Source: a bacterium (lineage in GTDB: Bacteria; SZUA-79; Acidulodesulfobacterales; Acidulodesulfobacteraceae). From it: DNA of 35,540 nucleotides. Where the stretch lies: assembly GCA_021822485.1 (NCBI GenBank), contig JAKAQP010000015.1, forward strand, positions 1 through 35,540, read 5' to 3'. Made by a program: the position numbers and the translations under genes. This document shows, in pieces, positions 687-34,521 of the stretch (within the stretch, counting starts at the first letter, position 1; each line of letters opens with the position of its first letter). The notes beneath the pieces are model-generated. The model was not told the DNA's origin and ran no database searches. It was given only the letters and a program-made list of their open reading frames with translations.

Positions 687-724
687 TAAAACTGCAGCGA
701 AATTAAAATTATAATGGATTAATT

Positions 725-1591: not shown

Positions 1592-1616
1592 CGTTAAGGA
1601 AATGTATAATTAGTGA

Positions 1617-1643
1617 CGGCGACAGAATTAAATTCTGTCGCCG
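1617..1643. other. Perfect 27-nt palindrome after ispH
   Basis: Arms at 1617-1629 and 1631-1643 are exact reverse complements around a single central A. The hairpin would be very stable, but no T-run follows it on either strand (the + side reads CAATAAAAAATTTG), so it does not meet the usual intrinsic terminator pattern. It lies between ispH and rpsA. It could be an atypical terminator, an RNA-processing or stability element, or a protein-binding site. Confidence 0.6.
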
Positions 1644-1718
1644 CAATAAAAAATTTGCTTAATTTGCTTAAATGTGTTAGATTATACTTATAAAATTTAG
1701 GAGGTAGTAATTAATATT

Positions 1719-3335: not shown

Positions 3336-3337
3336 CT

Positions 3338-4264: not shown

Positions 4265-4290
4265 TATAAAATAATATTTTTATTTTTTTT

Positions 4291-4776: not shown

Positions 4777-4795
4777 ACGGAGGTATCGATTTCAA

Positions 4796-5041
4796 ATGGC
4801 AAAAATTGTAAATATCGTTCTATTGCTAGTTTTTGTGACATTAGTTCTTGATTTTACCATACAGAACCATATACGCGTCAGCGTAAAACTTTTTGAATTT
4901 CAGTCTATTAAACTTCCTATTTCCGTTATAGTTTATATCGCAATATTAATAGGGATTTTAATTGCCCTTATATATCATTTTTATTCGGTATATAAAATAA
5001 AAAAAGATTTTAAAAAAGCGGATAAAAATGAACGGATATGA
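4796..5041 (+). CDS. LapA-domain (DUF1049) small inner-membrane protein
   Basis: This 81-residue protein has two membrane helices (about residues 5-21 and 40-62) and a lysine-rich cytoplasmic tail. The segment DFTIQNHIRVSVKLF followed by a hydrophobic second helix is the LapA/DUF1049 pattern. In E. coli LapA works with LapB in lipopolysaccharide assembly control; no lapB is visible here, so that role is only possible. The start is supported by a GGAGG about 10 bases upstream. Its TGA stop overlaps the next gene's ATG (ATGA at 5038-5041), indicating coupled translation with the nucleotidyltransferase. Confidence 0.75.
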   Translation: MAKIVNIVLLLVFVTLVLDFTIQNHIRVSVKLFEFQSIKLPISVIVYIAILIGILIALIYHFYSVYKIKKDFKKADKNERI

Positions 5042-6504: not shown

Positions 6505-6528
6505 TAAATGCAAAAATGGAGGGTAAAG

Positions 6529-7884
6529 ATGATAGAGTTTAATTTTAAAAATGTTTTAAATTCGGTGATAGAGGAAAACGGTATCGAAGAATCCGCCGTC
6601 AGGTCGCTCGAGAATGAACTTGTCGAAGCGAGAAGAAGGCTTAACGAACTTAGGCGCAACGGTGAAATAGGATTTTACGACGAAATATCTAATATGGGCA
6701 TGGTAAATAAAATTAAAGCCGCAACCGAAAGTTTTTTTTCTAAAAATTTTAAAACTTTATACGTATTCGGCATGGGCGGTTCATCCCTCGGAGCTATATT
6801 TTTAAAAGAAGCAATGTACGGCATGTTTAAAAACCGAAAAGACGGCGGCGCCGAAGTTATTTTTTCGGAAAATATAGACCCTTCTTATTTAAAAAAAAAT
6901 TTAGATGCTATAGATTTTAAAAAAACTTTGTTCTGTTTCGTTTCTAAATCCGCGGATACGATAGAAGTAGTTTCCCAGTTTTTTATCGTAAAAGAAATAT
7001 TGGAAAAAACCGTAGAAAATTATAAAGAAAATTTAATTTTTATTACCGATAAAAAGAGCGGTTTTTTAAGAAAATACGCCGACGAAAACGGGATTGCGGT
7101 TTTAGATATCGCTAAAAACGTTGGAGGAAGATATTCTATAGTCACCGCAGGCACTCTTTTTCCCGCATGCGTCATGGGGTTAGATATAGAAAAATTTCTG
7201 CACGGTTCTTTGACATACAGAGACAATATTCTCAATAAAGGAGTTTTTGAAAATAATCCGGTATATGCCATGGCGGCGGTTATATATCTTTTTTATGAAA
7301 AAAAGAAAAGAAACATATTCGTTCCTTTTGTTTACGGCGACTATTTGAGAGAGTTTTCAAGATGGTTCAGACAGCTTTTTGCGGAAAGTCTCGGAAAGGA
7401 TTTAACTTCTCCTACTCCGGTACCGGCGGTCGGGGCTACGGACCAGCATTCGCAGCTTCAGCTTTATATGCAGGGTCCGCAGGATAAATTGATAGGATTT
7501 TTCTGCCTTAAAAATTTCGGCGCGGATTATAATGTCAATTCGTCGGGATTTAATGAATTCGATTATTTAAACGGCAAAAAACTTTCCGACGTTTTAATGA
7601 ACGAATTAAAAGGCGTCGAGCTGGCTCTGGCTATAAATAAAAGACCTTCTTTCAGGGTTACTTTAGATAAAATAGACGAATTTAATGTCGGCGAACTTTC
7701 TTTTATGTGCATGGAAGCCGTCGCGGTTCTTGGAATGTTATTAAAAATAAATCCTTTCGATCAGCCGGGCGTCGAAAAAGGAAAGAAATTTGCCTATCTT
7801 CTTATGGGAAGAAAGGACGATTCTTTATTGAAAGAATCCGAAGAATTAAAAAGACTAAACGCAATTCCGGATATGCTTTATTAA
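6529..7884 (+). CDS. pgi: Glucose-6-phosphate isomerase
   Basis: Pgi interconverts glucose-6-phosphate and fructose-6-phosphate in glycolysis and gluconeogenesis. SIS-fold motifs are visible: FGMGGSSLGAIF, FVSKSADTIEVV, GGRYSIVTAGTLFP, then the signature stretch SPTPVPAVGATDQHSQLQLY and a C-terminal DQPGVEKGKKFAYLL. I place the start at the ATG at 6529, not the upstream in-frame ATG at 6508. A GGAGGG at 6518-6523 lies five bases before 6529 and inside the longer reading, which would itself lack a ribosome-binding site. That gives 451 residues, within the range of the shorter bacterial Pgi group. It follows the nucleotidyltransferase by 24 bases and is probably in the same transcript. Confidence 0.94.
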   Translation: MIEFNFKNVLNSVIEENGIEESAVRSLENELVEARRRLNELRRNGEIGFYDEISNMGMVNKIKAATESFFSKNFKTLYVFGMGGSSLGAIFLKEAMYGMFKNRKDGGAEVIFSENIDPSYLKKNLDAIDFKKTLFCFVSKSADTIEVVSQFFIVKEILEKTVENYKENLIFITDKKSGFLRKYADENGIAVLDIAKNVGGRYSIVTAGTLFPACVMGLDIEKFLHGSLTYRDNILNKGVFENNPVYAMAAVIYLFYEKKKRNIFVPFVYGDYLREFSRWFRQLFAESLGKDLTSPTPVPAVGATDQHSQLQLYMQGPQDKLIGFFCLKNFGADYNVNSSGFNEFDYLNGKKLSDVLMNELKGVELALAINKRPSFRVTLDKIDEFNVGELSFMCMEAVAVLGMLLKINPFDQPGVEKGKKFAYLLMGRKDDSLLKESEELKRLNAIPDMLY

Positions 7885-7912
7885 ATAATTAATATACTTT
7901 TTCGCCGGATTT

Positions 7913-8845
7913 ATGCTTAAAAAAATAATAGTAATAGGAGGTCCGACATGTTCGGGAAAAACGGAATTTTCTATAGAACTGGCTGAACGTTTCGGCGCAG
8001 AGATAATAAATTTCGATTCAATGTGCTTTTATAAATATTTCGATATAGGAACTGCAAAACCGGACGCCGAGGCAAGAAGCAGGGTAAAGCATTATCTCGT
8101 AGATATAAAATATCCTGATGAAGAATATAACGCGAGGACGTTTTCCGATGACGCCGAAAAATTAATAGAAGATATGGCTTCACGCGGAAAAATTCCCGTT
8201 TTTACGGGCGGAACGGGCCTTTACATTAAAGCTTTAATTTACGGACTTTCGCCTATTCCGGAGACAGACAAATCGGTTTTTCGAGAAAAAGCTTCGGAAT
8301 TAATAAAAGAAAAAGGACTTATATTTTTATACGAAACGGTGAAACGAATAGACCCCAGATATGCTTCTAAAATATCGTCTTCCGATACGCAGAGAATTAC
8401 AAGGGCTTATGAAGTATATTGCGCTACCGGCAAACCTTTATCTTTTTATCTTGATAAGAATCCTTTCGGACGGCAGAGATACGATTTTTTATGTTTTAAC
8501 TTATATCCTCAGAAAGATTATTTAAAATCGTGCATAATGAAAAGAACTTCGGCTATTATTAAAAAAGGTTTGGTCGAAGAAACAAAAAAAATATTGAGCA
8601 TGGGATATAAAACCGATTTAAAGCCTTTTAAAGGAATAGGCTACAGGGAGTCGCTGATGTATTTAAACAAAGAATTGCCTGCGGAAAAAGATTTATACGA
8701 TAAAATTGTTTCTTCTACTTTAAAATACGCAAAAAGGCAGTTTACTTTTTTTAAAAAATTTGAAAACGTTTTGCCGGTTTATTTTACCGATTTAAATGCA
8801 AAGATAGAATTTTCGTCAAAATATATCGAAAGGTTTTTAAAATGA
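7913..8845 (+). CDS. miaA: tRNA dimethylallyltransferase
   Basis: MiaA transfers dimethylallyl from DMAPP to A37 of tRNAs that read UNN codons. The P-loop GPTCSGKT is at residues 9-16, followed by FDSMCFYKYFDIGTAKP, the family's substrate-channel motif. FTGGTGLYIKALIYGL, QRITRAYEVY and KPFKGIGYRE are further conserved blocks; length (310 aa) is normal. Its substrate comes from the MEP pathway, represented here by ispH, ispD and ispF. The stop overlaps the hflX start by ATGA. miaA next to hflX is a familiar proteobacterial arrangement (miaA-hfq-hflX in E. coli), here without hfq between them. Confidence 0.96.
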   Translation: MLKKIIVIGGPTCSGKTEFSIELAERFGAEIINFDSMCFYKYFDIGTAKPDAEARSRVKHYLVDIKYPDEEYNARTFSDDAEKLIEDMASRGKIPVFTGGTGLYIKALIYGLSPIPETDKSVFREKASELIKEKGLIFLYETVKRIDPRYASKISSSDTQRITRAYEVYCATGKPLSFYLDKNPFGRQRYDFLCFNLYPQKDYLKSCIMKRTSAIIKKGLVEETKKILSMGYKTDLKPFKGIGYRESLMYLNKELPAEKDLYDKIVSSTLKYAKRQFTFFKKFENVLPVYFTDLNAKIEFSSKYIERFLK

Positions 8846-9936
8846 CTCAGAAAGCTTTGCTTGTCGGAATAAATACAGATTCGGATATAGAAAAAAGCAA
8901 GGATTCGTTGGAAGAACTTAAAATGCTTTCCGAAACCGCCGGCGCAAAAAATGTTTTCAGCGTTTTAAAAAACATAAAAAAAATAGACCCCGCTTATTAT
9001 CTTTCAAAGGGCATGCTTGAAGATATAAAAGATAAAACGGTTTCGGAAAATGCAGATATAGTCATAATCGATGCCTCTTTAAGTCCTGCGCAGGAGCGCA
9101 ATCTTTCCGAGTATTTCAATTTAAACGTAATAGACAGGACGAGACTTATTCTTGACATATTCGCCGTTAACGCAAGGACGGCGGAAAGCAGATATCAGGT
9201 CGAACTTGCTATGATGAATTATATACTGCCCAGACTTAAAGGCGCAGGAATAATGCTTTCCAGAACCGGCGCCGGCATAGGAACGAGGGGTCCCGGCGAA
9301 ACTAAATTGGAAACCGACAGAAGAAAAATAAGGCTTAAAATTACTCATATAAAGGAAAGGCTGAAACTTTCCGAAAAAACAAGAACGCTTCACAGGTCTA
9401 AGAGAAACAGGCAGGGTTTTTTGACCGCGGCTATTGCAGGATACACTAATTCAGGCAAAACGACGCTTATGAAAAGTTTGACCGGCAAAGGAGAAAAAGG
9501 AGAAAATAAGCTTTTTGCGACGCTTGGGACGAAAACGGCATCAATTTACGACGATGCAAGAAAGAAAAAAGTTTTAATATCCGATACTGTAGGTTTTATT
9601 CAAAATCTTCCGCTTTTTTTAGTCGATTCTTTTAAAGCTACGCTTGAGGAAACGGTTCAGGCGGATTTATTAATACATGTAATAGACCCCGTACAAAATT
9701 CGATAATAGATAAGTCTGGCGAAGTTATTAAAATATTAAACGAGATAGGAGTTAAAGATAAAACAATTCTTACGGTTATAAATAAAACAGACCTTATAGG
9801 CGAAGAACAGGCGGATTTTTTGAAAAATAAGTTCGAAACGCTTACCGGCAGTCCCGTTATAGCCGTTTCAGCTAAGACCGGAAAAAATATAGATTTATTA
9901 AAAGAAAAAATATTCTATTTATTAAATATGGAGTAA
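8842..9936 (+). CDS. hflX: Ribosome-associated GTPase HflX
   Basis: HflX is a GTPase that splits stalled 70S ribosomes after stress. The glycine-rich linker TRGPGETKLETDRRKIR, diagnostic for the family, lies near residues 148-164. It is followed by the GTPase motifs: G1 GYTNSGKTT (about residues 200-208), G2 LFATLGTKT, G3 DTVGFIQNLP, G4 NKTD and G5 VSAKTGKNI. Length (364 aa) fits the shorter bacterial form without a long C-terminal extension. It overlaps miaA by four bases, and its last codons (ATGGAG) provide the likely Shine-Dalgarno for the next gene. Confidence 0.96.
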   Translation: MTQKALLVGINTDSDIEKSKDSLEELKMLSETAGAKNVFSVLKNIKKIDPAYYLSKGMLEDIKDKTVSENADIVIIDASLSPAQERNLSEYFNLNVIDRTRLILDIFAVNARTAESRYQVELAMMNYILPRLKGAGIMLSRTGAGIGTRGPGETKLETDRRKIRLKITHIKERLKLSEKTRTLHRSKRNRQGFLTAAIAGYTNSGKTTLMKSLTGKGEKGENKLFATLGTKTASIYDDARKKKVLISDTVGFIQNLPLFLVDSFKATLEETVQADLLIHVIDPVQNSIIDKSGEVIKILNEIGVKDKTILTVINKTDLIGEEQADFLKNKFETLTGSPVIAVSAKTGKNIDLLKEKIFYLLNME

Positions 9937-9940
9937 TATA

Positions 9941-10675
9941 ATGGTAAATAAGTTTATACGCGTTATATTTTTTTTAGCGATTTTATGTATTTCATCCCTT
10001 ATTTTTTCGGTTAACGTTTTCGGCATGAGCGTTAACGTCAAAACTTATGTCGTAATTCCTAAAAGCGAAGCGGCATCGGGACATGCCGCGGACCTTCAGC
10101 AAACCGCAATAAAACGCGCGATAACGCTGTCCGTGAAAACTGCCGTAAAACGTCTTATAGGTAAAAAAATTTTTTTGAAAAAACAAACCGGCATTATTCT
10201 TAAAAAAAATATCTACTCAAACGGACGGAAATATATATACTCGTTTAAGGTTTTAAAGGCGGGAGAATATCTTAATCTTTATTATATAAACATAAAGACG
10301 CATATAAGAGCCGGCGGTTTAATAAATGCCCTTAAAACACTCGGATTTCATATACTTAAAACAAAACATTCGGGCAAAAAAGCCGTTTACGGCGTTTATT
10401 ATATAAAATTTACCGGCAACTTTAATAACGGCGATTCAAATCTTTTTCAGAAACTCATGATTAAATATTCGCATCACATTAAAAATCTTTATATATCATC
10501 ATTTTCGGAAAATTACGACGAAATAAAAGTTCTTTACTACGGAAGTATCGTTCGGTTGTTAAAAAGAGTGGATTTTATAGTAAAGTCTTATCTTAACGCA
10601 AAAATAACTACGGCAAAAAATAATGCCGTAACGATAAACGTAATCGCTCATAAAGCAGAGAAAAAAACGCCTTAA
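9941..10675 (+). CDS. Unrecognised secreted basic protein
   Basis: I do not recognise this gene with confidence. The N-terminus is a clear signal peptide or anchor: one lysine and one arginine, then a hydrophobic run (about residues 7-28) ending near NVFG. The mature part is unusually rich in lysine and tyrosine and contains an alanine/lysine helix (TAIKRAITLSVKTAVKRLIG, about residues 56-75). It is followed by a strand-like stretch (YIYSFKVLKAGEYLNLYYI) and HIRAGGLINALKTLGF. That order loosely recalls the N-terminal domain of FlgT-type periplasmic proteins, but the resemblance is only a pattern match. It begins four bases after hflX using the GGAG at the hflX end, so it is probably cotranscribed. 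It ends three bases from the convergent gene. Confidence 0.8.
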   Translation: MVNKFIRVIFFLAILCISSLIFSVNVFGMSVNVKTYVVIPKSEAASGHAADLQQTAIKRAITLSVKTAVKRLIGKKIFLKKQTGIILKKNIYSNGRKYIYSFKVLKAGEYLNLYYINIKTHIRAGGLINALKTLGFHILKTKHSGKKAVYGVYYIKFTGNFNNGDSNLFQKLMIKYSHHIKNLYISSFSENYDEIKVLYYGSIVRLLKRVDFIVKSYLNAKITTAKNNAVTINVIAHKAEKKTP

Positions 10676-10678
10676 AAT

Positions 10679-11149
10679 TCAGAATAATCTGAATATGTTT
10701 TTCAGCGAAGTTATAGCCATAGAGTTTATATAAAAGTTGAAAATTGCATAAAGAAAGATACTGACGAACATAGGTATAAAGAAATAAGCATAAATATTTT
10801 TATTTTTTTCGTATAAAACGCCGAGCGCAAGCGATACAGGCGGAGCGCCGATGAACATCTGCCCTATAAACAGCCCTATTATCGGTCCGTATTTTTCAAT
10901 GTAATTATGCGCCTTTTTTCCTTTTTTAGAAGAAATCATCCTGTCTATAAATTTAATGGATTTTAGCTTTAAACCAGCGTAAAACAGTGCCGAACATAAA
11001 ATAGTTTCCGAAAGAGTTATTAAAAAGATGCTTGTGTACGGGTTTAATTTATAATAAACGGCGTATGCCGTCGACATGTACTTTCCGCCTATTAACGGGG
11101 TCATATTAATGGCGGTCATTATAATATATTTTAAATATAAAGGTTTCAT
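10679..11149 (-). CDS. Small polytopic membrane protein, possibly small multidrug export / DedA-like
   Basis: The 156-residue protein has four or so hydrophobic segments: residues about 8-30, 37-58, 90-110 and 118-140. Features such as INMTPLIGGKYMSTAYAV, a proline-containing re-entrant-looking segment (GQMFIGAPPVSLALGVLY) and EKYGPIIGLF recall the Sm_multidrug_ex (PF06695) and DedA-like membrane families; I offer this only as a resemblance. A transport role is not shown. It is divergent from hsp20 (116-base intergenic region) and convergent with the secreted protein before it. Its stop lies inside a short inverted repeat (10677-10694) that could act on both transcripts. Confidence 0.7.
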   Translation of the reverse strand: MKPLYLKYIIMTAINMTPLIGGKYMSTAYAVYYKLNPYTSIFLITLSETILCSALFYAGLKLKSIKFIDRMISSKKGKKAHNYIEKYGPIIGLFIGQMFIGAPPVSLALGVLYEKNKNIYAYFFIPMFVSIFLYAIFNFYINSMAITSLKNIFRLF

Positions 11150-11184
11150 ACATATTTAGTCAATGTTTTAAACATACCCTATTT

Positions 11185-11238
11185 TTGTTTTTTATGCATT
11201 AATCTGATATAATTATAACTATAAATCATATAATTATA
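11185..11238 (+). promoter_or_regulatory. hsp20 promoter with tandem TATAATTATA sites
   Basis: A -35 TTGTTT (11185-11190), 17-base spacer and extended -10 TGATATAAT (TATAAT at 11208-11213) precede hsp20 by about 50 bases. The 10-bp palindrome TATAATTATA occurs twice, at 11208-11217 (covering the -10) and 11229-11238, with starts 21 bases apart, about two helical turns. A repressor could bind here, but AT richness makes chance occurrence possible. Confidence 0.6.
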
Positions 11239-11265
11239 AAGTATAAAATTTATCGGAATAAAGAA

Positions 11266-11607
11266 ATGTACTATTTTGCACCGGTATCCGACATGTTCGA
11301 AACTTCGGATTATATAGCTGTATATATAGAACTTGCCGGAGTCAGAAAAGAAGATATAAATATAGAAATCGGGGGAGGAATACTTGAAATCAGGGGTATT
11401 AAACGCCGTTTTGGAACTAATAAAGAATGTAATTTTCAAAGAATGGAGAGACCTTTCGGCTTATTCAAAAGAAGATTTAGTCTGCCTTCTTCCGCAAACT
11501 ATGACGGCGTTAAGGCGTCTTTCGAGGAAGGTCTGCTTGAAATAATTATACCTAAAAAAAAGATAAGCGGGGGATTTAAAATTTCCTGCATTGAAATTAA
11601 CGATTGA
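11266..11607 (+). CDS. Small heat-shock protein (Hsp20/alpha-crystallin)
   Basis: Hsp20 proteins are ATP-independent holdases that keep unfolding proteins soluble for later refolding by ClpB/DnaK. The 113 residues are almost entirely alpha-crystallin domain: VYIELAGVRKEDINIEI, GGILEIRGIKRR, the ERPFGLFKRRFSLP block, and ASFEEGLLEIIIPKK. The usual N-terminal oligomerisation arm is nearly absent; only about ten residues precede the domain. No strong Shine-Dalgarno is seen before this ATG, so an alternative start is possible, but no better ATG exists upstream in frame. clpA begins 45 bases downstream, suggesting an hsp20-clpA transcript. Confidence 0.9.
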   Translation: MYYFAPVSDMFETSDYIAVYIELAGVRKEDINIEIGGGILEIRGIKRRFGTNKECNFQRMERPFGLFKRRFSLPSSANYDGVKASFEEGLLEIIIPKKKISGGFKISCIEIND

Positions 11608-11652
11608 AAAACAAATAATGCAAAAATACTATTAAGGACGGTAAACAAACTT

Positions 11653-13986
11653 ATGTTTAATTTAGACTATTACGAGGACAAACTTTCGGAAAGCGGATAT
11701 AGGGTTTTAACAATTTCCATAGAGGAATCGAAAAGAAGAAAACATTTTTATCTTGGACCGGAGCATATTTTTTATGCTCTGACTTTAGTGGACGAGGATC
11801 TTTTAAATGAAATTTTTTTGGAGTTAAGAATCGACAAAAGAAAGATAATGAAACTTTTGAACGATTATATGATGTCGTCCGACCAGTATGTCGGTGAAGG
11901 AATGAAAATTCCGCTTCAAACAAGAAATTTATTTAAAAGCGCTTACGATTACGCCCAAAGCGCCGGCAGAAACCTTATAGAATCTACGGATTTTTTAATG
12001 GTAATGTTCCAGGAGCCGAGTTCCGCTCCAAACAAAGTCTTTAAAGCGCTTGGCGTGGATTCGGTAGTGCTTGCCGATAAGATTTTTCAGAAAATGAGGG
12101 AAAGAAGGAGCAGAAGCGACGAAAACAGAAGAAAATACGACCTGCCTTATACGCTCAGACAGCATGCCGTAAATTTAAGCAAACTTGCAATTATGGATAA
12201 ACTGCCTTTAGTATTCGGAAGGGAAGAAGAAATTACCAGACTTATGGAAATACTCTGCCATATAGACAGACCTAATTCCGCTATAATAGTAGGAGAGCCC
12301 GGCGTAGGAAAGACGGCGGTAGTAGAAGGTCTTGCAAGAAAAATAGAACTTGAACCATACAGCGTTCCGGCAAGGCTCAGAAATAAAATTATAGTAAACC
12401 TGCAGATGAATTCTTTAGTTGCAGGAACGGTTTTCAGGGGCATGTTCGAAGACAGGATGGAAAAGATAATAAACGAACTGAAGTCCAGAAAAAATATAAT
12501 TTTATTCGTCGATGAAGTGCATACCATTATCGGCGCCGGTTCCGCAATTGCAGTTCCCAGCGATGCGGCAAATATATTAAAATCCTCCCTTGCAAGAGGC
12601 GAAGTGCAGATGATTGGAGCTACGACGCTTTCGGAATATAAGGAGTTTATTTCCGAAGACGAAGCCCTTGCCCGCAGATTCAGATTAGTCAACATTAACG
12701 AGCCTAATACGGAAGATACCAAAAGAATACTCTACGGTCTTAAAAGAAGATTCGAAGATACATACGGCGTAGAGATAGAAGATTCCGCTCTTGACGAGTC
12801 GCTTAAACTGTCGTCCCGTTATTCCAAATCTTTAAGGCTTCCGGACAAAGCTATCGGATGGGTGGATTCCGGATGCGTAAAGGCCGAAATATACAACGAC
12901 GATAAAATAGTTAAAAAGGAAAATATCTATCAGGTAATCGCCCAGGAAACAGGTATGCCTATAGATTTGATTAAAAGAGACGTCTTAGAAAGATTTCAGG
13001 ATATGGAGGAATTTTTCTCAAAAAGGATAGTCGGACAGAAAGACGCCGTTAATTCTTTAGCAAAACATTTAAGGCTAAATAAAGGACCATTGAAAGGAAA
13101 TTTTAACAGACCCGATGCGGTGCTTCTTTTTTTAGGCCCTACGGGAGTCGGAAAAACGGAAACCGCAAAGGCCATGGCGGAGTACCTGTTCGGTTCCGAA
13201 AGAAATATAATCAGGATAGATATGTCGGAATATAAAGACGGCTCGATAGCAGTGGATAAACTAATAGGTATGCCGAGAGGCATAGTAGGTTCTTCGAGAG
13301 GCGGAACTTTAACCAATCAGGTAAAAGATAACCCTTATTCCGTAATTCTTTTGGACGAAATAGAAAAAGCCAGCGATCTCGTATTTAATCTTTTCCTTCA
13401 GGTTTTCGACGAAGGTTTTTTAACCGACGGAAGAGGCAAAAGAGTTTATTTTTCTGATTCCGTAATTATTATGACGTCGAATCTTGGTTCGCATGAATTT
13501 TCAAAATTTACGAAACCGCTTGGTTTTATAGAATCAAACGATATAGTAAAGTCTATTAAAGGAACGATAAATAAAGAAATAGAAAACTTTTTTTCTCCGG
13601 AATTTATAAACAGAATAGACGATATCGTTATTTTTTCGCCGCTTACGAAAGAAGAAGTTAAAAAAATCGCATTGATGCATATTGAAACTATAAATAAAAC
13701 GATGTCTGAACATGACAAAGAAATTATCGTTACCGGCGCCGCTTTAGAAAAATTAGTCGAGACCGGCTACAGTTCAAAATTCGGAGCGAGATTTTTAAAG
13801 CGTACCATCGACGACATTATTAAGGTTCCGCTGACGCTTAAATGGAAAGAGGGCGATATATTTACCGCCGAACTTAAAGACGGCGAAATATCCATTGTTT
13901 CGGATAAAAATCCCAAAGACGGCGACATCGCAAAAAAAGTTAAAAACGGAAAAGAAAAATATAAGGAGGAGCCTGATTATGTCTGA
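11653..13986 (+). CDS. clpA: ClpA-type AAA+ unfoldase (ClpP partner)
   Basis: ClpA unfolds substrates and feeds them to the ClpP protease. The protein has a Clp N-domain (about residues 1-140), a first AAA+ module (Walker A GEPGVGKTAV near 215, Walker B ILFVDEVHTI) and a second (Walker [13 protein letters not shown] near 495, Walker B VILLDEIEKAS). There is no long coiled-coil middle domain, unlike the ClpB downstream. The tripeptide L623-G624-F625 in KPLGFIES sits just after MTSNLGS, where E. coli ClpA carries its IGL loop for docking ClpP; this argues for a true ClpP partner. No clpS or clpP is in the window. The charged C-terminus ends by overlapping the DUF1844 gene by eight bases. Confidence 0.92.
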   Translation: MFNLDYYEDKLSESGYRVLTISIEESKRRKHFYLGPEHIFYALTLVDEDLLNEIFLELRIDKRKIMKLLNDYMMSSDQYVGEGMKIPLQTRNLFKSAYDYAQSAGRNLIESTDFLMVMFQEPSSAPNKVFKALGVDSVVLADKIFQKMRERRSRSDENRRKYDLPYTLRQHAVNLSKLAIMDKLPLVFGREEEITRLMEILCHIDRPNSAIIVGEPGVGKTAVVEGLARKIELEPYSVPARLRNKIIVNLQMNSLVAGTVFRGMFEDRMEKIINELKSRKNIILFVDEVHTIIGAGSAIAVPSDAANILKSSLARGEVQMIGATTLSEYKEFISEDEALARRFRLVNINEPNTEDTKRILYGLKRRFEDTYGVEIEDSALDESLKLSSRYSKSLRLPDKAIGWVDSGCVKAEIYNDDKIVKKENIYQVIAQETGMPIDLIKRDVLERFQDMEEFFSKRIVGQKDAVNSLAKHLRLNKGPLKGNFNRPDAVLLFLGPTGVGKTETAKAMAEYLFGSERNIIRIDMSEYKDGSIAVDKLIGMPRGIVGSSRGGTLTNQVKDNPYSVILLDEIEKASDLVFNLFLQVFDEGFLTDGRGKRVYFSDSVIIMTSNLGSHEFSKFTKPLGFIESNDIVKSIKGTINKEIENFFSPEFINRIDDIVIFSPLTKEEVKKIALMHIETINKTMSEHDKEIIVTGAALEKLVETGYSSKFGARFLKRTIDDIIKVPLTLKWKEGDIFTAELKDGEISIVSDKNPKDGDIAKKVKNGKEKYKEEPDYV

Positions 13987-14410
13987 TAAGGAAGGCGAAA
14001 AATCTTTCAAAGTAATAGATAAAAGGAAAACATCGGAAGCTGAAGAAATAGAAGAAGCAAAAAACGCCGAAGAAGCTAAACCGGCGGAAAAAGTCAATGA
14101 AAATACGGCAAGAACCGCCGATTCCGAAAAAAAAGCCGCGGACGAAACCGCCGCCGATATGCCGGATTTTGAAGCGGATTTTGCCGCGTTCGTCTATTCG
14201 CTTAATACGCAGGCGCTTCTTTTTATGGGAAAGATACCGAATCCCATATCCAAGAAATACGAGAAAGACTTGGGAACGGCTAAATACTTGATAGATACTA
14301 TAGACATGCTTTCTAAAAAAACTAAAGGAAATCTTGACGAAAATGAAGCCAAACTTATAGAAAATATTTTATACGACCTTAGGATGGCTTATATTTCGGA
14401 AAAAAAATAA
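13979..14410 (+). CDS. DUF1844 protein
   Basis: The function is unknown. The conserved DUF1844 core is at the C-terminus (about residues 60-143): FAAFVYSLNTQALLFMGKIP, an aspartate-led helix, then TKGNLDENEAKLIENILYDL. The N-terminal 60 residues are charged and low-complexity (Glu/Lys/Ala rich) and probably disordered. I choose the ATG at 13979 because AAGGAGGA lies ten bases upstream; the open frame runs further back to 13895, but that part duplicates clpA coding sequence. The start overlaps the clpA stop by eight bases, so translation is probably coupled. Its position between two Hsp100 genes hints at, but does not prove, a link to protein quality control. Confidence 0.82.
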   Translation: MSDKEGEKSFKVIDKRKTSEAEEIEEAKNAEEAKPAEKVNENTARTADSEKKAADETAADMPDFEADFAAFVYSLNTQALLFMGKIPNPISKKYEKDLGTAKYLIDTIDMLSKKTKGNLDENEAKLIENILYDLRMAYISEKK

Positions 14411-14485
14411 ACCGTTAGTTTGGTTGCGGCAGTGCTGTAATTTAATTCCGGCACTTTATTAAAAGAAAAAGAGGTAATATATTTT

Positions 14486-17098
14486 ATGAATCTTAACAAT
14501 TTTACTATAAAATCCCAGGAATTAATAGAGCTTACGATAAATACGGCTAAAGAAGCTAAAAATCCGGAAATATCGGATTTGCATTTATTATATGCCCTGC
14601 TTAATTACGACGATAACAGTATAGCTTTATCGATTTTTAAAAAAATTGGCATAGACTTGAAATCTTTTAACGAACAATTAAAAACGGCGCTGTCTAAACT
14701 TGCCGTCGTAGAAGGAGGAATGGAACCTGCTTTTTCTTCGTCGATGAAGCGTATTTTAGACGCCGCGGAAAAGAATAAAAATTTTATGAAAGACGATTTC
14801 GTGTCGGTCGAGCATTTCGTTCTTGCAATGTTTGACGTCAAAGATACAAAATCGTACGAAATATTAACGAAATTCGGATTAACCAAAGACGGCATACTTA
14901 AAGTTCTTACTGATATAAGAGGGAATACTAAAGTTACCGACCAGAATCCGGAAGATAAATACCAGGCGTTAGAAAAATATACCGTAAATTTAACTCAGCT
15001 TGCAAAATCCGGAAAAATAGATCCTGTTATAGGCAGAGACGGCGAAATAAGAAGAATTATGGAGGTGCTGTCCAGACGGACTAAAAACAATCCTGTTTTG
15101 ATAGGCGATCCTGGCGTAGGCAAGACTGCGATAGTAGAAGGGCTTGCCAAAAGAATCGCCGACGGAGACGTCCCCGAAATTCTTAAAGAAAAAACAGTTC
15201 TTTCGTTAGACCTGGGTTCTCTAATAGCGGGAGCTAAATACAGAGGCGAATTCGAGGATAGGCTTAAAGCAGTAGTAAAAGAGATAAAGTCGTCGGAAGG
15301 CAGGATAATAATATTTATAGACGAATTGCACAATCTTGTCGGCGCGGGAAAATCCGAAGGAGCAATGGATGCATCCAATCTTCTGAAGCCGGCTCTTGCA
15401 AGAGGGGAGTTAAGGGCTATAGGAGCGACGACGCTTGACGAATACAGAAAATATATAGAAAAAGACGCCGCGCTGGAAAGAAGATTTCAGCCGGTTTTCG
15501 TGGATGAGCCGTCCGTAGAAGATACTATTTCTATACTCAGGGGGCTGAAAGAAAGATACGAAGCATATCACGGCATAAGAATAAAAGATTCGGCTTTAAT
15601 CGCGGCGGCTACGCTGTCGCACAGATATATTACAGACAGATTTTTGCCTGATAAGGCTATAGACCTCATGGATGAGGCTTCGGCAAAATTAAGAATAGAA
15701 ATCGATTCTCTTCCCGCCGCTCTCGACGAAGTCCAGAGGAATATTATCAGAATTAAGATAGAGCAGGAGGCGCTAAAAAAAGAAAAAGACGAACAATCCA
15801 AAAAAAGATTGAAAGAACTTGACGAAGAACTTGCGAATCTGGAAGAAGATTTTAATCAGAAGAAGGCAAAATGGCATAACGAAAAAGAGTATATCCAAAA
15901 AATAGGCGAAATTAAAAAAGAAATAGATTCTCTGAGAATTGAGGAACAGAGATACGAAAGAGAAGGGAAATACGATAAAGTGGCGGAAATAAGATACGGC
16001 AAATTAAACGAACTGGAAAAGAAACTTGAAGATTTAAATAAATCTCTCATTGCAATGCAGGAAAACGGAAGCTTTTTAAAAGAAGAAGTGGATTCAGAAG
16101 ACATTGCTAGAGTAGTGGCTAAATGGACGGGAATACCCGTTTCCAAACTTATGGAGGGAGAAAAAGAGAAACTTCTTCAAATAGAAGAACACCTTCACAA
16201 TAGGGTAATATCTCAGAATGAAGCAATTAACAGCGTGGCCAATACTATCAGGCGTTCCCGCGCCGGTTTATCGGACGTAAATAAACCGATAGGTTCTTTT
16301 ATGTTTCTCGGACCTACCGGCGTCGGGAAGACGGAACTGGCAAAAGCCCTCGCCGAATTTTTATTTGACGACGAAAACAATATAGTAAGAATAGATATGT
16401 CCGAGTATATGGAAAAGCATGCAGTATCGAGACTTATAGGTGCTCCTCCGGGTTATGTCGGGTACGAAGAGGGCGGACAGCTTACGGAAGCGGTAAGAAG
16501 GCGTCCTTACAGCGTAGTTTTGTTCGACGAAGTAGAGAAAGCCCATCAGGACGTGTTTAACGTAATGCTCCAACTTCTTGACGACGGAAGACTTACCGAC
16601 GGACAGGGAAGAACGGTCGACTTTAAAAATACGATTGTCATTATGACATCCAACATAGGTTCCGATATTATTCAAAGTTACAGCGGCAAGCGGTATGAAG
16701 AAATGAAAAACAGCGTTAACGGAATTTTAAAAAATTATTTCAGGCCCGAGTTTTTAAACAGATTGGACGATATAATAATATTCCACGCTTTAAGCGAAAA
16801 CGATATAATGAAAATCGTCGAAATACAGCTGAAAAAACTCATTAACGTACTTAAGGAAAGAGGCATAGACGCTGAATATACGGATTCTTTGCTGAAGTTT
16901 ATAGCAATGGAAGGTTACGATCCGATTTACGGAGCAAGACCGTTAAAGAGAGCGGTTAAGTCATTCATACAGGATAAAATTGCCGTCGATTTATTGTCCG
17001 GCGCAATCGTTTCCGGCGATTCAATAGTTATAAACTATAAGGAGGAATCGGGGGTAATAGTCGAAAAGGTTACTGTAGTTACCGCCGAACCTGCCTAA
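14486..17098 (+). CDS. clpB: ClpB protein disaggregase
   Basis: ClpB pulls proteins out of aggregates together with DnaK and small heat-shock proteins. The 870-residue length is standard. It has a Clp N-domain (about 1-145), AAA-1 with Walker [11 protein letters not shown] (from residue 207) and Walker [15 protein letters not shown], and a long coiled-coil middle domain (about 405-530, Lys/Glu rich). AAA-2 carries Walker [13 protein letters not shown] (from about 609) and Walker [12 protein letters not shown], and the [17 protein letters not shown] block follows its Walker A. After MTSNIGS there is no hydrophobic-Gly-hydrophobic ClpP loop, unlike the ClpA two genes upstream, consistent with a disaggregase. 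A GAGGT lies about ten bases before the ATG. Confidence 0.97.
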
Positions 17099-29612: not shown

Positions 29613-29735
29613 TTTAAATTAAAAATATCGTCGCCTCTTCTTTTTTTATCGGTCTTTTTAGGATAAAGTCTTAGGGTTTCTTTTACCGCGAATAATACGC
29701 TTCAAGTTGTGTTAATTTATCGGGACGTTATAATT

Positions 29736-29797
29736 TGGTGCCGAAGGGGGGGAATCGAACCCCCATGGGATTGCTCCCGCCGGATTTTGAGTCCGGT
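29736..29797 (-). repeat. Left attachment-site copy: 3' fragment of tRNA-Leu
   Basis: This is a copy of the tRNA-Leu 3' portion from the anticodon stem through CCA. It differs from the intact gene only by seven instead of six consecutive G. It lacks the 5' acceptor strand and D arm, so it is not a functional tRNA. It marks the far end of the island. Confidence 0.9.
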
Positions 29798-29853
29798 TAT
29801 GATTTTTTATAAGTTATTAATTTTAAAGAGTATTTATGCTTATGAAAAATATG

Positions 29854-29874
29854 CCTATGTGAAAATCCGGCCAT
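29854..29874 (+). repeat. 21-nt repeat, left copy
   Basis: CCTATGTGAAAATC followed two bases later by GCCAT; the same motif occurs at 34331-34351, 19 of 21 bases identical and in the same orientation. Each copy lies 57-84 bases inside a tRNA-derived repeat. It may be an integrase or excisionase arm site. Confidence 0.6.
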
Positions 29875-29941
29875 CATTCAGCATACTCGCTATTTTTAAT
29901 TTTGTATAAAATGTCACGTCTGCCATTTTTTTATAGGCAAT

Positions 29942-30274
29942 TCATCTTCGTATGATTTCAACTATGCTTTCTATAATTTGATTGACCTTATTTTTCGTAA
30001 GATTACCGATTTTATAAAGGATAATATTGCCGTCGGCTGTAAATATTCTATTAGGTCTTATGTTGCTCGATTGTTTTAAATCTCCCGATTCAAAATCGCT
30101 TTTATTGATTGGAATGGCATAATTGTCTTTAACGGTTTGACTTGTTATTTGACAAAGGATTAAATCGTCACCGTCTAATTTTGAAATAACTAAGGCAGGT
30201 CGTCTTTTAGCCTGGCTTAAATCGGAAAAAGGAAAAGGAACTACAACGACATCTCCCTTTACAAATTCTGCCAT
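29942..30274 (-). CDS. MazF/PemK-family toxin
   Basis: PemK/MazF toxins are sequence-specific mRNA interferases. The 110-residue protein shows the fold's opening pattern VKGDVVVVPFPFSDLSQAKRRPALVIS (given here as VKGDVVVVPFPF and KRRPALVIS), then ILCQITSQ and the later SNIRPNRIFTADGN, where the arginine is usually catalytic or RNA-binding. Length is normal and the frame is intact. Its start overlaps the end of the antitoxin gene by 16 bases, the usual coupled order with antitoxin first. It lies just inside the left repeat of the island, close to the attachment site. RNA target cannot be predicted. Confidence 0.85.
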   Translation of the reverse strand: MAEFVKGDVVVVPFPFSDLSQAKRRPALVISKLDGDDLILCQITSQTVKDNYAIPINKSDFESGDLKQSSNIRPNRIFTADGNIILYKIGNLTKNKVNQIIESIVEIIRR

Positions 30275-30453
30275 GCTTTATCTTCCTCAGGCTTAAGCCA
30301 GTCTTTTTTAAGAGAGGATTCGCTTATAACGGTAATCGCAAGTCTTTCCTGAATAGATTTTGTTTTTAAAAAATTCATAAAATCTAAAACCTCGTTAAGA
30401 AAAGGCTCCGGGCAATGTTCTATTTCATTTAAAAGTAATTCTTTAGTACTCAT
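30259..30453 (-). CDS. Antitoxin for the MazF-like toxin (DUF2281-like)
   Basis: This 64-residue acidic protein has an N-terminal helical segment (NEIEHCPEPFLNEVLDFMNF) of the kind seen in DUF2281 antitoxins, and a C-terminus rich in charged residues (DWLKPEEDKAWQNL) that probably wraps the toxin. It begins after AAGGCG and ends inside the toxin start. The pairing with MazF rests on adjacency and overlap. A related fragment occurs at 33588-33755. Confidence 0.75.
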   Translation of the reverse strand: MSTKELLLNEIEHCPEPFLNEVLDFMNFLKTKSIQERLAITVISESSLKKDWLKPEEDKAWQNL

Positions 30454-30598
30454 AATTCGCCTTTTATCAAGTCGTCGAATATTGAATATATTTAATATAT
30501 TTTATAATACGTAAATATAAAAATCAAAACATAAATTAAATAACATAAATTACATATTTCGGTTTAAACGGACATTAATTCAAGTTAGTCGGCGACTT

Positions 30599-30697
30599 CT
30601 AACGTCCAAGATTATTTTTCGAGTTTTCTAATATGTTTTTTGTAGAAACGTTTCCTTTGAAGAATTCTATCATTACATCGGTATCGCATAATACCAC
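30599..30697 (-). pseudogene. Truncated VapC PIN-domain toxin
   Basis: A 32-codon frame starting at GTG reads VVLCDTDVMIEFFKGN, the classic N-terminus of a VapC PIN ribonuclease with its first catalytic aspartate, then stops at TAG. A normal VapC has about 130 residues, so the later acidic residues and the fold are missing; the DNA beyond (30454-30598) shows no continuation in another frame that I can recognise. It starts two bases after the VapB stop, the standard vapBC arrangement. It is therefore a dead toxin with its antitoxin left in place. Confidence 0.75.
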
Positions 30698-30698
30698 T

Positions 30699-30902
30699 TT
30701 AATAACCCCACGCCTTTTCCCTGATTTCTTCTTTTGTAAAAGTTCTTTTTTTCCATAATCCGAACATTTGGTTCATATCGAATGTTTTTTTCTTTTTCTC
30801 TATATTTTCGATATCTTTAATTTTTATATAGGGATTCTGGTTTAAAAAGTTTATGACGGTTTTTGCTTTTTCGATATCTTTTATTTCCAATACTATCTTC
30901 AT
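30699..30902 (-). CDS. VapB-type antitoxin (orphaned)
   Basis: The 67-residue protein has a basic, helical N-terminal half and the characteristic C-terminal end MFGLWKKRTFTKEEIREKAW, found in antitoxins that precede VapC toxins. AGGAG lies before the ATG, so translation is likely. The toxin partner downstream is truncated, leaving this as an orphan. It might still bind related toxins or its own promoter. Confidence 0.75.
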   Translation of the reverse strand: MKIVLEIKDIEKAKTVINFLNQNPYIKIKDIENIEKKKKTFDMNQMFGLWKKRTFTKEEIREKAWGY

Positions 30903-31059
30903 TATTTAAATCTCCTGTTTGTATTTATAATTCTCTAATTCTTTTTATATCTTATATTAAAAATTATGTGTATTATATTATTATTTTATCAGCTTTTTAA
31001 ATAAATTCCAAACTATAGAAAATTTTATAGAAAATTTTTTAAAGGATATGCTAAATACC

Positions 31060-31285
31060 TTATGCCTTGCTTGGTTTCTTAATCCCGAACTTTTTTGCCA
31101 GGAAGCTGATAAACTGTTTCGTATTTCCGATAGTCTTAGCCGCCCTCGTCATATTATAATCGTTCTCCTTAAGAATTTCTTCTACGCGCTCTTTATCAAT
31201 TCTGTCTTTTTGCCGGGTTTTGAAGCCTTATAGATGTCGTTCAAGTTTTTAACGAATAGGTAGGGTTCTTTTGGATTGTCGTTTC
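31060..31285 (-). pseudogene. Remnant of a Fis-type helix-turn-helix protein
   Basis: On the - strand, a stretch without a start codon reads ERVEEILKENDYNMTRAAKT and ends KKFGIKKPSKA then TAA (31060). This is the pattern of the Fis-like HTH at the C-terminus of NtrC-family and related regulators. An upstream piece in another frame (YLFVKNLNDIYKASKPGKK, up to about 31285) joins it if a one-base shift is made near 31200, so the gene appears both truncated and frameshifted. The + strand frame over the same bases (31048-31233) has no protein-like character. Confidence 0.5.
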
Positions 31286-31385
31286 TTCAAAAATGATAAA
31301 AATATATTAAAAACTTACTTTGAATCAAATAAATTTGATTTAATTTACGCGTTTGTTTTTTTTATTCCTTATTTTATATATTTTA

Positions 31386-31532
31386 GAACAAGCATTAGGC
31401 GATAGATATCCTAATGACGATGGCAGTATTGCTGATTATAGCGAGGACTCCATTCTTGCTAAAAAATATTGTGAAATTACCGGAGGCGTTAAAAAAACTA
31501 TTAATAATATTGGAGAGTTTATTATATTATAA
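31386..31532 (+). pseudogene. C-terminal fragment of an unknown gene
   Basis: An open stretch with no start codon reads EQALGDRYPNDDGSIADYSE, continues with AKKYCEITGGVKKTINNIGE, and ends at TAA. It has protein-like composition in surroundings that are otherwise AT-rich and empty, so I read it as the tail of a lost gene. No family is recognised. Confidence 0.35.
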
Positions 31533-31559
31533 GTTATAAATCTTTAGATATTTAATTTT

Positions 31560-31589
31560 TTGCAATTAAATCACAAAAAGTGGTATAAT
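31560..31589 (+). promoter_or_regulatory. rloA promoter
   Basis: TTGCAA at 31560-31565, an 18-base spacer, and TATAAT at 31584-31589 preceded by TG (extended -10) form a good sigma-70 promoter about 67 bases before the ATPase gene. Confidence 0.7.
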
Positions 31590-31656
31590 TAAATATATTT
31601 TTAATTATATTAAATTAAATTGAAGTTAATTAAATATTCAGTAAGAGATTAAATTT

Positions 31657-32904
31657 ATGTTAGTAGAATTTAAAGTTTCTAATTATCTTTCTATAAGCGA
31701 AGAACAGACTCTAAGCATGGTTGCGAACAATGCCGACAAAACATTGCTGAATCATATTAAAGAGTTTGATAAATACAAGATTAAAGTTCTAAGAACGGCT
31801 GGAATATTTGGACCGAATGCTTCCGGTAAAACCAATATGCTTAAAGCTATAGATTTTATGAAAAAATTAGTATTGTATTCTTCGCAAAATCTTCCCATTG
31901 CTCCGACAGGTGTTGTTCCGTTTAAATTTTTAAAGGGAAAAGATAATCGTTTATCAAAATTCGAAACGACTTTCATTCTTGACGATGGCGTTTTGTATTC
32001 ATACGGTTTCGAGTTGAGCGAAAAAGAAATATACAATGAATGGTTGCATTATTATCCAAAAAATCAGAAAAGAAATCTTTTCCAAAGAAGCAAAACTGAC
32101 GGATACAAATTTGGAAGCGATATGAAGGGGCGGAATAAATCTATAGCCGATATGACAAAAGAGAATTCATTATTTTTATCGGTTGCGGCGACGATGAACG
32201 AGGAGAAAGCGAAAAATATTTATGCTTTTTTTAATAACATTTCTCCTGTGCTTAATCAAATAGATTTATTAAGCAGTATAATTTTTATGAACAATATCGT
32301 TGAGTATTATAAGAATAAAGGCAAGGATAAGTTAATAAGTTTTTTACAAAAAGCGGATTTAGGGATTACCGATTTAGAAATTAAAACTAAAAATATAAGT
32401 AAAGGAGTTGAGGTTTTGACAAAAATCCTGCAAGATAAAGGTATTGAAATTAAAAGTTCAAATAAAGAATTAGATATGGATAATCTTATAGGCGATGAAA
32501 TCAATTTTACGCATGAATATGACGGTATTTCTGGTAAATTAACAATAAACGAGGAGTCAAGCGGAACGCAGAAACTATTCTATTTTTTGCCGTTTTTTAT
32601 CGAAAATAAAGGTATTATTTTAATCGATGAGTTAGAATCGTCAATGCATCCTCATTTAATAAATCTTTTATTAGATTTTTATTATGATATTTATCCCGAC
32701 TCGCAGCTTATTTTTAGCTCTCATAATTCCGATCTGTTAGATACGGAAAAGTTCCGCAGGGATGAAATCTGGTTTACGGAAAAAGAAAAAAACGGAAGTA
32801 CGGCCCTTTTTTCGTTAGATGATATAAAACCTAAGCCGAGATTAGAGGATGATATTAAAATACGCTACCTTTATGGTCAATATGGCGCAGTTCCTAATAT
32901 ATAA
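31657..32904 (+). CDS. RloA/AbiLi-type AAA ATPase, defence system
   Basis: This is an SMC/ABC-like ATPase (AAA_15/AAA_21) of the kind encoded beside RloB. Walker A is FGPNASGKTNMLKA (residues about 51-64), an ABC-type signature-like block is EESSGTQKLFYFLPF, Walker B is IILIDELESSMHP (about 319-331) and the late switch is LIFSSHNSDLLD. The N-terminus MLVEFKVSNYLSISEEQ is typical of the group. At 415 residues it is full length and undamaged. It has its own promoter and is followed after 33 bases by a RloB gene. Such pairs (RloAB, AbiL) are found in restriction loci and phage-resistance islands; abortive infection is the likely mode, inferred from family knowledge. Confidence 0.85.
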   Translation: MLVEFKVSNYLSISEEQTLSMVANNADKTLLNHIKEFDKYKIKVLRTAGIFGPNASGKTNMLKAIDFMKKLVLYSSQNLPIAPTGVVPFKFLKGKDNRLSKFETTFILDDGVLYSYGFELSEKEIYNEWLHYYPKNQKRNLFQRSKTDGYKFGSDMKGRNKSIADMTKENSLFLSVAATMNEEKAKNIYAFFNNISPVLNQIDLLSSIIFMNNIVEYYKNKGKDKLISFLQKADLGITDLEIKTKNISKGVEVLTKILQDKGIEIKSSNKELDMDNLIGDEINFTHEYDGISGKLTINEESSGTQKLFYFLPFFIENKGIILIDELESSMHPHLINLLLDFYYDIYPDSQLIFSSHNSDLLDTEKFRRDEIWFTEKEKNGSTALFSLDDIKPKPRLEDDIKIRYLYGQYGAVPNI

Positions 32905-32937
32905 ATATATGGCTAATTAATGGCATGAGAGCTAAAA

Positions 32938-33474
32938 ATGGTTAAATTTAAAAGATCAAGAAAAATACGGGAAAGCCATAGAATATTTTTAATAGTAACG
33001 GAGGGTAATATTGATGAAATATATTTTAAGCAATATAGAAAGCACAGAAATAATAGCGAATCAAAGGTTTATATAAACGTTAAAACTGCAGGACATGCTA
33101 CAGATCCTTATAATATAGTAAGATACGCCGTAAAAGAAAAAAACAAAATTAAAGACAATAATAACGTATTGGGCGGCATATTCTGTGTCTTTGATATTGA
33201 TATAGTCGTAAAAACAAAAGAAAAAACAGTAAAGGAAAATCTTTCTAAAGCTGAAAATTTAGGTAAGCGAAATAACATTAGTTTAATAACCTCGTTTCCC
33301 TGTTTCGAATTATGGCTTCTTTTGTATTTTGAAGACTATAACAAGCCCGGATTTGAATGTGAAACAGTTATAAAAGAATTACAAAAATTTTTATCATCTT
33401 ATTCTAAAAATAAAAAAGAATTTGACAAAATTAATTTTTTTGATAAATATTCGGATAAATTTGGTGATGATTAA
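32938..33474 (+). CDS. RloB/AbiLii-like protein, C-terminus lost by frameshift
   Basis: RloB proteins accompany RloA-type ATPases and have a Toprim-like core. Visible family features are RIFLIVTEGNIDEIYFKQY near the N-terminus (acidic E after VT), GIFCVFDIDIV with the paired aspartates, and SFPCFELWLLLYFEDY, the strongest RloB signature. The frame stops at 33474 after KFGDD. Reading on one frame back gives LNRAKKLKF and then YPYTKIYEIFEAIK, stopping at 33569, which looks like the normal RloB ending (alpha-helix plus an NPxT-like turn). One missing T in GATTA would explain this. The protein as encoded lacks about 30 residues; activity is uncertain. Confidence 0.8.
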   Translation: MVKFKRSRKIRESHRIFLIVTEGNIDEIYFKQYRKHRNNSESKVYINVKTAGHATDPYNIVRYAVKEKNKIKDNNNVLGGIFCVFDIDIVVKTKEKTVKENLSKAENLGKRNNISLITSFPCFELWLLLYFEDYNKPGFECETVIKELQKFLSSYSKNKKEFDKINFFDKYSDKFGDD

Positions 33475-33587
33475 ATCGTGCTAAAAAACTTAAATTCAAA
33501 AATAATTCAGATAATTTATTGAATTACCCCTATACCAAAATTTATGAAATATTTGAAGCAATTAAATAAATTATAGCAATTTATAAT

Positions 33588-33755
33588 GTATCATTAGGTT
33601 TTAAAAGAACGCCAATATTTTTAAAGACTAAATTAGATACGAATTTATCCGTCAAAATAATCAAAACCGTTAAAGCGCTTCCGGAAGACAAGCAGTTCGA
33701 GGTTCTCGACTTTATTATAAAAAAGGTATGCGATTTATTTTTTAATACTTTATGA
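33588..33755 (+). pseudogene. Antitoxin-like fragment
   Basis: A 55-codon open stretch without a start codon reads VKIIKTVKALPEDKQFEVLD, then FIIKK and a stop. The ALPEDKQFEVLDFI core is typical of DUF2281-type antitoxins, and resembles the antitoxin at 30259-30453. No toxin follows. Its stop overlaps the ATG of the phzF fragment. Confidence 0.5.
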
Positions 33756-33865
33756 AAATCAAACAATTTCAAATAGATGCATTTACAGGCCGTGTTTTCG
33801 GCGGCAATCCCGCCGCAGTCTGTCCTCTTAAGGGTTGGCCGAAAGACAACCTTCTTCAATATTAA
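33752..33865 (+). pseudogene. N-terminal fragment of a PhzF-family gene
   Basis: 37 codons from an ATG read QIDAFTGRVFGGNPAAVCPL and then KGWPKDNLLQ, the unmistakable N-terminus of PhzF-family epimerase/isomerase proteins (usually about 260-300 residues). The frame stops at 33865, exactly where the integrase fragment of the opposite strand begins. The rest of the gene is absent. This is a deletion remnant, not a functional gene. Confidence 0.8.
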
Positions 33866-34277
33866 TCGAGCGAAAATTTATCTCCGATTCTTTTTTTCCG
33901 CCGTTTTTAGGGTCGTTTAATATCTCCAACTTTCTTTCCGTCTGGTAATTTTTTATATCGAGGGTGGATATATCGTATAATTTTTTATTTTCTAAAAATG
34001 GAAGGAAATGCAAACTTGCTACGATTTTTCTCTCGATAGTTTTTTTAGTGTTGCTTCCGGCAATACTTTTCATGTAATTTTCCCATGCGGTTTTAAATAA
34101 AAGATTTTTATTTCTGGCGGTAGGCAGGCTGTAATTGTTTTTTATTACGTCGTTTTTGACCGATATTTCTATCTGTTCGGCAAGTTTTTTATCGGCAGTT
34201 CTGCAACTTTTCCGGTATCTTTTTCCCTCATGGACGAAGTCGTAGAAGTAATATTTGCCGTTTTTCACGATTGACAT
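33828..34277 (-). pseudogene. Truncated tyrosine integrase (N-terminal part)
   Basis: The protein starts MSIVKNGKYYFYDFVHEGKR, a short arm-type DNA-binding domain (residues about 1-50), followed by the SAM-like core-binding domain of phage integrases (about 60-130: LLFKTAWENYMKSI, LHFLPFLENKKLYDISTLDI). It ends around INFRSINIE, where integrases normally continue into the catalytic domain; the last dozen residues come from the antisense of the phzF fragment. The catalytic R, HxxR and Y residues are all missing. GAGGA precedes the ATG. Its position next to the tRNA-Leu and its direction into the island mark it as the element's own integrase. Confidence 0.85.
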
Positions 34278-34330
34278 GTCTTAAATCCTCATTTTCACCA
34301 GCGTTTTATTGACTTATATGTATTATATCA

Positions 34331-34351
34331 CCTATGTGAAAATCTCGCCAT
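34331..34351 (+). repeat. 21-nt repeat, right copy
   Basis: This is the partner of 29854-29874, 19 of 21 bases the same, in direct orientation. It sits between the integrase start and the tRNA, where arm-type or excisionase sites of integrative elements are often found. Confidence 0.6.
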
Positions 34352-34397
34352 AAAAAAGACAAAAATGGGTAAAAAATGGTCTTATTTGATTAAATAT

Positions 34398-34424
34398 GAA
34401 AAAGGTTTGGAACCGGAGAACCTT
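34398..34424 (-). terminator. Possible terminator of tRNA-Leu
   Basis: On the - strand a six-base-pair stem (AAGGTT/AACCTT, loop of 11) is followed by a short T-run, 11 bases after the tRNA CCA end. The stem is weak, so this is tentative. Confidence 0.3.
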
Positions 34425-34434
34425 ATAAAATATG

Positions 34435-34521
34435 TGGTGCCGAAGGGGGGAATCGAACCCCCATGGGATTGCTCCCGCCGGATTTTGAGTCCGGTGCGTC
34501 TACCAATTCCACCACTTCGGC
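34435..34521 (-). tRNA. tRNA-Leu (anticodon CAA)
   Basis: The - strand gives a complete class II tRNA: acceptor GCCGAAG/CTTCGGC, a D arm with GGTAGAC, an anticodon stem CCGGA/TCCGG with loop CTCAAAA (anticodon CAA, reading UUG). It also has a long variable arm (GGGA-gcaa-TCCC), a T arm GGGGG-TTCGATT-CCCCC, and an encoded CCA at 34435-34437. The long variable arm and anticodon agree on leucine. It is the only intact tRNA in the window. Its 3' end is the target of the island, and the second, incomplete copy lies at 29736-29797. Confidence 0.96.

Follow-up and report, generated by a model that had tools for sequence, protein, structure and literature searches.

Islands whose attP is centred on the anticodon form class A of the Islander compilation, in which 2083 of them are listed (PMC4383910). 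Accretion of islands at one RNA gene, with integrase-less islands among them, has been described for ssrA of Dehalococcoides (PMC3146451), and antiviral systems are carried by P4-like and other phage satellites (PMC9122126, PMC8628076). The window analysed here, a stretch of 35,540 bases that is one whole contig of a 1.6 Mb draft genome, contains a 4.7 kb segment that is very probably what decay has left of an integrative element, which entered at the anticodon loop of tRNA-Leu(CAA), probably atop an earlier element. A displaced 3' tRNA fragment, a target gene regenerated by the element and a tyrosine integrase gene adjoining the target are features that it has in common with class A of Islander; in contrast to that class, its integrase is truncated, and the island forms just the most recent layer of what are probably two. 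Repeated integration, direct-repeat markers, integrase-less segments and accretion are shared with the Dehalococcoides islands, which differ in their target (ssrA), in their integration module and in their cargo of respiratory genes.

The only tRNA gene found in the window by ARAGORN is an intact tRNA-Leu(CAA), the target gene (34435-34521, minus strand). Its last 61 nt, which reach from the CCA end to the anticodon stem and include the 5' edge of that stem (tRNA-Leu positions 27-87; 34435-34495 in the window), recur in direct orientation 4.7 kb away as a displaced 3' part of 62 nt on the attR side (29736-29797, minus strand), the sole difference being one extra G within a G run. A match of this length inside 4.7 kb is far above chance, and the insert is bracketed by the tRNA gene and the displaced fragment.

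Forty relatives were searched for the tRNA and its surroundings, the genus was searched for the OYE gene found beside the displaced copy, and the loci were compared; every genome compared is a draft metagenome assembly. In five genomes a lone tRNA-Leu(CAA) stands roughly 50-190 nt beyond OYE, and no second copy is present. Four of these (G003, G006, G010 and G002) belong to the same genus and one (G016) to another genus of the same family. The first-pass annotation had claimed a direct repeat of the tRNA-Leu(CAA) 3' end and had pointed to OYE joined to tRNA-Leu without an insert as the arrangement to look for; such sites exist in two genera, relatives that lack the segment have one copy and not both, and the genes between the two copies are missing or different in relatives instead of being conserved. 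The spacers of G010 and G002 contain no arm or element trace and are clean empty sites. Those of G003, G006 and G016 hold 20-30 nt similar to the island's tRNA-side arm (shuffle p <= 0.0005), and because this trace is kept, these seemingly empty sites are probably scars. In G001, G004, G011, G020 and G021 a displaced tRNA copy like that of the window is followed by a similar arm region, in G005, G007, G014 and G022 the tRNA-side arm is present, and other genomes hold different inserts at the same point of tRNA-Leu(CAA). The coexistence of empty, arm-bearing and differently occupied sites among relatives makes the tRNA-Leu(CAA) site a hotspot.

Between islands of unlike content, about 80 bp at the end next to the displaced copy and about 100 bp at the tRNA end are conserved. 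The attR-side region (29798-29877, plus strand), which ends in CCTATGTGAAAATCCGGCCAT (29854-29874), recurs beside displaced tRNA copies elsewhere with 74-93% identity. The attL-side region (34330-34434, plus strand), which occupies the gap between integrase and tRNA and starts with CCTATGTGAAAATCTCGCCAT (34331-34351), reappears upstream of the related integrases found at tRNA-His, tRNA-Lys and tRNA-Leu(TAA). The regions at both ends share CCTATGTGAAAATC(C/T)(C/G)GCCAT, a motif that is present, exactly or nearly so, just upstream of these integrases: the 17-nt arm motif stands there at tRNA-His and tRNA-Lys, and a near-identical one at tRNA-Leu(TAA). Because they recur in islands at these three other tRNAs, we read the conserved end segments as probable arm regions of the integrase. 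The 21-nt direct repeat at 29854 and 34331 was also considered as the ends of an insertion sequence, an idea that was rejected because the repeat recurs at fixed spots next to tRNA cores and ahead of integrase genes.

The duplicated core spans the anticodon stem-loop at tRNA-His as well as at tRNA-Leu: displaced copies of tRNA-His likewise begin at the anticodon stem (positions 28-76), and at both tRNAs island-specific sequence begins where the anticodon stem ends. At two hybrid junctions, in G004 and G009, the arm region is joined to non-tRNA DNA and only CGGATTTTGAGTCCGG remains of the core. The suggestion of the first-pass annotation that strands were exchanged at or near the anticodon loop is supported by the start of the island at the stem end and by the two hybrid junctions, and a crossover in or near the loop would agree with the anticodon-centred class of Islander. 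The two hybrid junctions are possible secondary-site integrations. That in G004 (L077, 11683-11785) lies upstream of a histidine kinase gene, and its insert-free counterpart in G010 reads AACGGAT up to the junction; that in G009 (L083, 2740-2836) lies inside an AbrB-like antitoxin gene, and its counterpart in G003 diverges beyond the junction. In each, the core consists of the anticodon stem-loop only. An integron-like cassette site, an idea raised by these hybrid copies, was discarded, as no array of sites was found and the units are att arms plus half a core.

Variable arms differ between the tRNA and the displaced copy of G020, as expected if the 3' part of the tRNA was swapped. The displaced copy of G021 has the same unusual variable arm as the tRNA of that genome. 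The island that G021 has at tRNA-Leu(CAA) is minimal, 0.8 kb long, and contains a ParE-type toxin-antitoxin pair and no integrase (L086, 8480-9500). The tRNA-side end of this small island (GGCTTATTTACTG) resembles a different arm type, which suggests a second element family at the site.

At the tRNA end of the window island, where the first-pass annotation had placed an integrase fragment, there is an N-terminal fragment of a tyrosine integrase (33828-34277, minus strand; PF14659, E 7e-5), which matches residues 1-139 of a 344-aa relative. The entire catalytic domain is missing, which makes the window island a decayed member of its family, presumably no longer mobile by its own integrase. A phage-type replisome organiser, about 200 aa long when complete, is represented by a C-terminal remnant (30943-31288, minus strand) of a family met again in the islands of several genomes, including islands at other tRNAs. 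The truncated integrase, the replisome gene reduced to its end and the broken frame of RloB (discussed below) agree with the earlier description of the island as decaying.

An intact sister element (L193, in G011:C3) occupies 16.3 kb (162-16464) from tRNA-His (162-237) to an exact displaced copy of 49 nt (16416-16464). Its integrase of 344 aa is full-length, with R, HxxR, H and Y motifs, its replication genes encode a replisome organiser (PF09681), a DUF3987 protein and a CHC2/Toprim primase, and its cargo includes Type III restriction-modification, AAA ATPase, HEPN and PIN-like genes. From this combination of integrase and phage-type replication module, the window keeps, for replication, only the replisome-organiser remnant. 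No recognised structural gene is present among the ORFs scanned, and by its gene content the sister is satellite-like. It resembles P4-like and other phage satellites that bear antiviral systems (PMC9122126, PMC8628076) in its tRNA integrase, phage-type replication and defence cargo, but differs from them in that it has no recognised capsid-hijacking, packaging or regulatory gene, and no helper was identified. The complete relatives with intact integrase that the first-pass annotation had proposed to look for are thus present at tRNA-His, but at tRNA-Leu(CAA) itself no intact integrase of this family was found in the genomes compared, and we therefore infer the parent element from the tRNA-His sister. 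No phage or plasmid relative of the integrase was found above 60% identity, and the named records of the element family are draft metagenome genomes, some of which are labelled Deltaproteobacteria.

The anticodon loop of tRNA-Leu(CAA) would have been the place where a tyrosine integrase recombined, so that the 3' part of the tRNA was swapped for the element's own copy and the original fragment was pushed 4.7 kb away. The element family combines an integrase beside the tRNA and a conserved arm at each end with a phage-type replication module, and its cargo consists of defence and toxin-antitoxin genes that are exchangeable. Later deletions, and the pasting in of a 2.3 kb block of RloA, RloB and phzF, may have removed the catalytic domain of the integrase and most of the replication gene.

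This block (31537-33860, plus strand) is 97% identical to loci of two relatives: 97.3% to G002:C43, and 97.5% over the first 2.0 kb to G009:C74. It contains an intact RloA/AbiLi-like AAA ATPase of 415 aa (31657-32904, plus strand), which was found in three of 26 genomes, and an RloB/AbiLii-like gene (32938-33474, plus strand), the frame of which is broken near its end, leaving 178 aa versus 210 aa at the closely similar loci of the two relatives. A phzF-like 5' stub (33752-33860, plus strand) is joined to the integrase remnant, and the right end of the block cuts the integrase; in G002 phzF is complete. Both genes of the RloA/RloB pair named in the first-pass annotation are therefore present, with RloA intact, but the pair as a whole is not intact. 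The order of an AAA_21 ATPase followed by an RloB-family protein, and the presence of a restriction-modification gene before the pair in relatives, are as in RloA/RloB systems (AbiLi/AbiLii of PADLOC), from which the window differs by its broken RloB. In G002 and G009 the pair sits downstream of a Type ISP restriction-modification gene, the product of which has 1559 aa in G009; in G002 only a contig-cut end of it is present. Defence modules such as RloA-RloB are seen in these comparisons to move between loci as blocks. The G009 defence locus (L175, 1-9452; G009:C74) encodes a HerA-like ATPase, a 443-aa protein without a known family and the Type ISP protein, then RloA and RloB. The Type ISP protein of 1559 aa has an S24-peptidase-like C-terminus, and such a domain is, to our knowledge, unusual for an enzyme of this type.

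The bounds of the island had been described as exact to the base. As a border with the ancestral chromosome they do not hold, because the C-terminal remnant of a ParE-like toxin (29613-29698, minus strand) lies outside the displaced copy, within the approximately 124 bp that separate the copy from OYE. The OYE-ParE junction is common to G014 (94% over 145 nt), and therefore the repeat marks the latest layer only. In G014 ParE is intact, the displaced copy is absent and the tRNA-side arm is present. The simplest reading is that an older island lost its OYE-side end before a second integration at the tRNA; an earlier element would already have been at the site, with the ParE-toxin stub beside OYE as its remainder. 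Two insertion layers are thus probable, the older being read from one shared junction. The other way to read this end of the island, as a single layer in which the original attR is represented by the displaced copy and an unrelated insertion later brought in the ParE stub, gains something from the weak resemblance to arm sequence just outside the copy (20 nt, shuffle p 0.04), but it is improbable given that G014 has the same junction with a tRNA-side arm and without a displaced copy, and that in G009 and G021 ParE lies directly inside the arm, as if the OYE-side end of the older island had been lost. It is also at odds with the layering that occurs in the element family, as indicated by clear arm sequence outside the displaced copies of G001 and G004 and by a tRNA-His core copy with an arm on both sides in G002:C22 (L129, 3800-4100). 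This arm-core-arm copy and a second tRNA-His core copy, in G015:C99 (L130, 6200-6600), are both away from a complete tRNA and, by their arrangement, are tandem island junctions.

Instead of being a spent remnant, the segment could be a unit of cargo that has no working integrase but has kept both att ends and can be moved, as a cis-mobilisable element, by a related integrase elsewhere in the cell, as has been discussed for the Dehalococcoides ssrA islands (PMC3146451). The segment still has its two arm regions and its two core copies, and the same genome has at tRNA-His (G000:C16) an integrase that is 73% identical and has the same 17-nt arm motif. That gene, however, runs off its contig, tRNA-His and tRNA-Leu have different core sequences, and the displaced core contains an extra G, so that we regard mobilisation of this kind as unlikely. 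Least credible by far is a relic of a tandem tRNA cluster or tRNA gene duplication with ordinary resident genes in between, for although a decayed tandem tRNA would leave a second partial copy, this idea is refuted by empty sites in two genera that hold one copy and keep the OYE-tRNA order, by intervening genes that are absent or different in relatives, by a copy that stops exactly at the anticodon stem and continues into an element arm in six genomes and at other tRNAs, and by the integrase fragment at the opposite end.

With the segment taken as the remnant of an integrative element, we consider it possible, without favouring the idea, that the window preserves a relic of an undescribed satellite-like family in one uncultured bacterial group. 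Closely related integrases with near-identical arm sites would have changed targets among at least four tRNAs (Leu-CAA, Leu-TAA, His and Lys), apparently always at the anticodon stem-loop and with occasional joining to non-tRNA sites, while shuttling interchangeable defence and toxin-antitoxin modules. The kind of element is well known, and the family itself may be undescribed. Its members provide, for one tRNA gene, a clean record across several genomes of how insertion and decay were repeated, in which empty, scarred and occupied sites and an intact sister are all represented, and a change of integrase target becomes testable with close integrases that have the same arm sites and different tRNAs.

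The remaining cargo of the window island is related to toxin-antitoxin systems, of which the first-pass annotation had counted two loci. One of them, by its gene content, looks intact: a PemK/MazF-like toxin of 110 aa (29942-30274, minus strand; E 4e-12) is accompanied by a probable partner antitoxin of 64 aa (30259-30453, minus strand), DUF2281/VapB-like by a weak match below curated cut-offs; an NCBIfam scan gave no matches above the curated cut-off. The other is reduced to an antitoxin-like frame of 67 aa (30699-30902, minus strand) and, beside it, a PIN-toxin-like stub that looks like the start of a toxin (about 30600-30705, assigned by eye). The island also holds what remains of the N-terminal part of a ParE-like toxin (30578-30623, minus strand).
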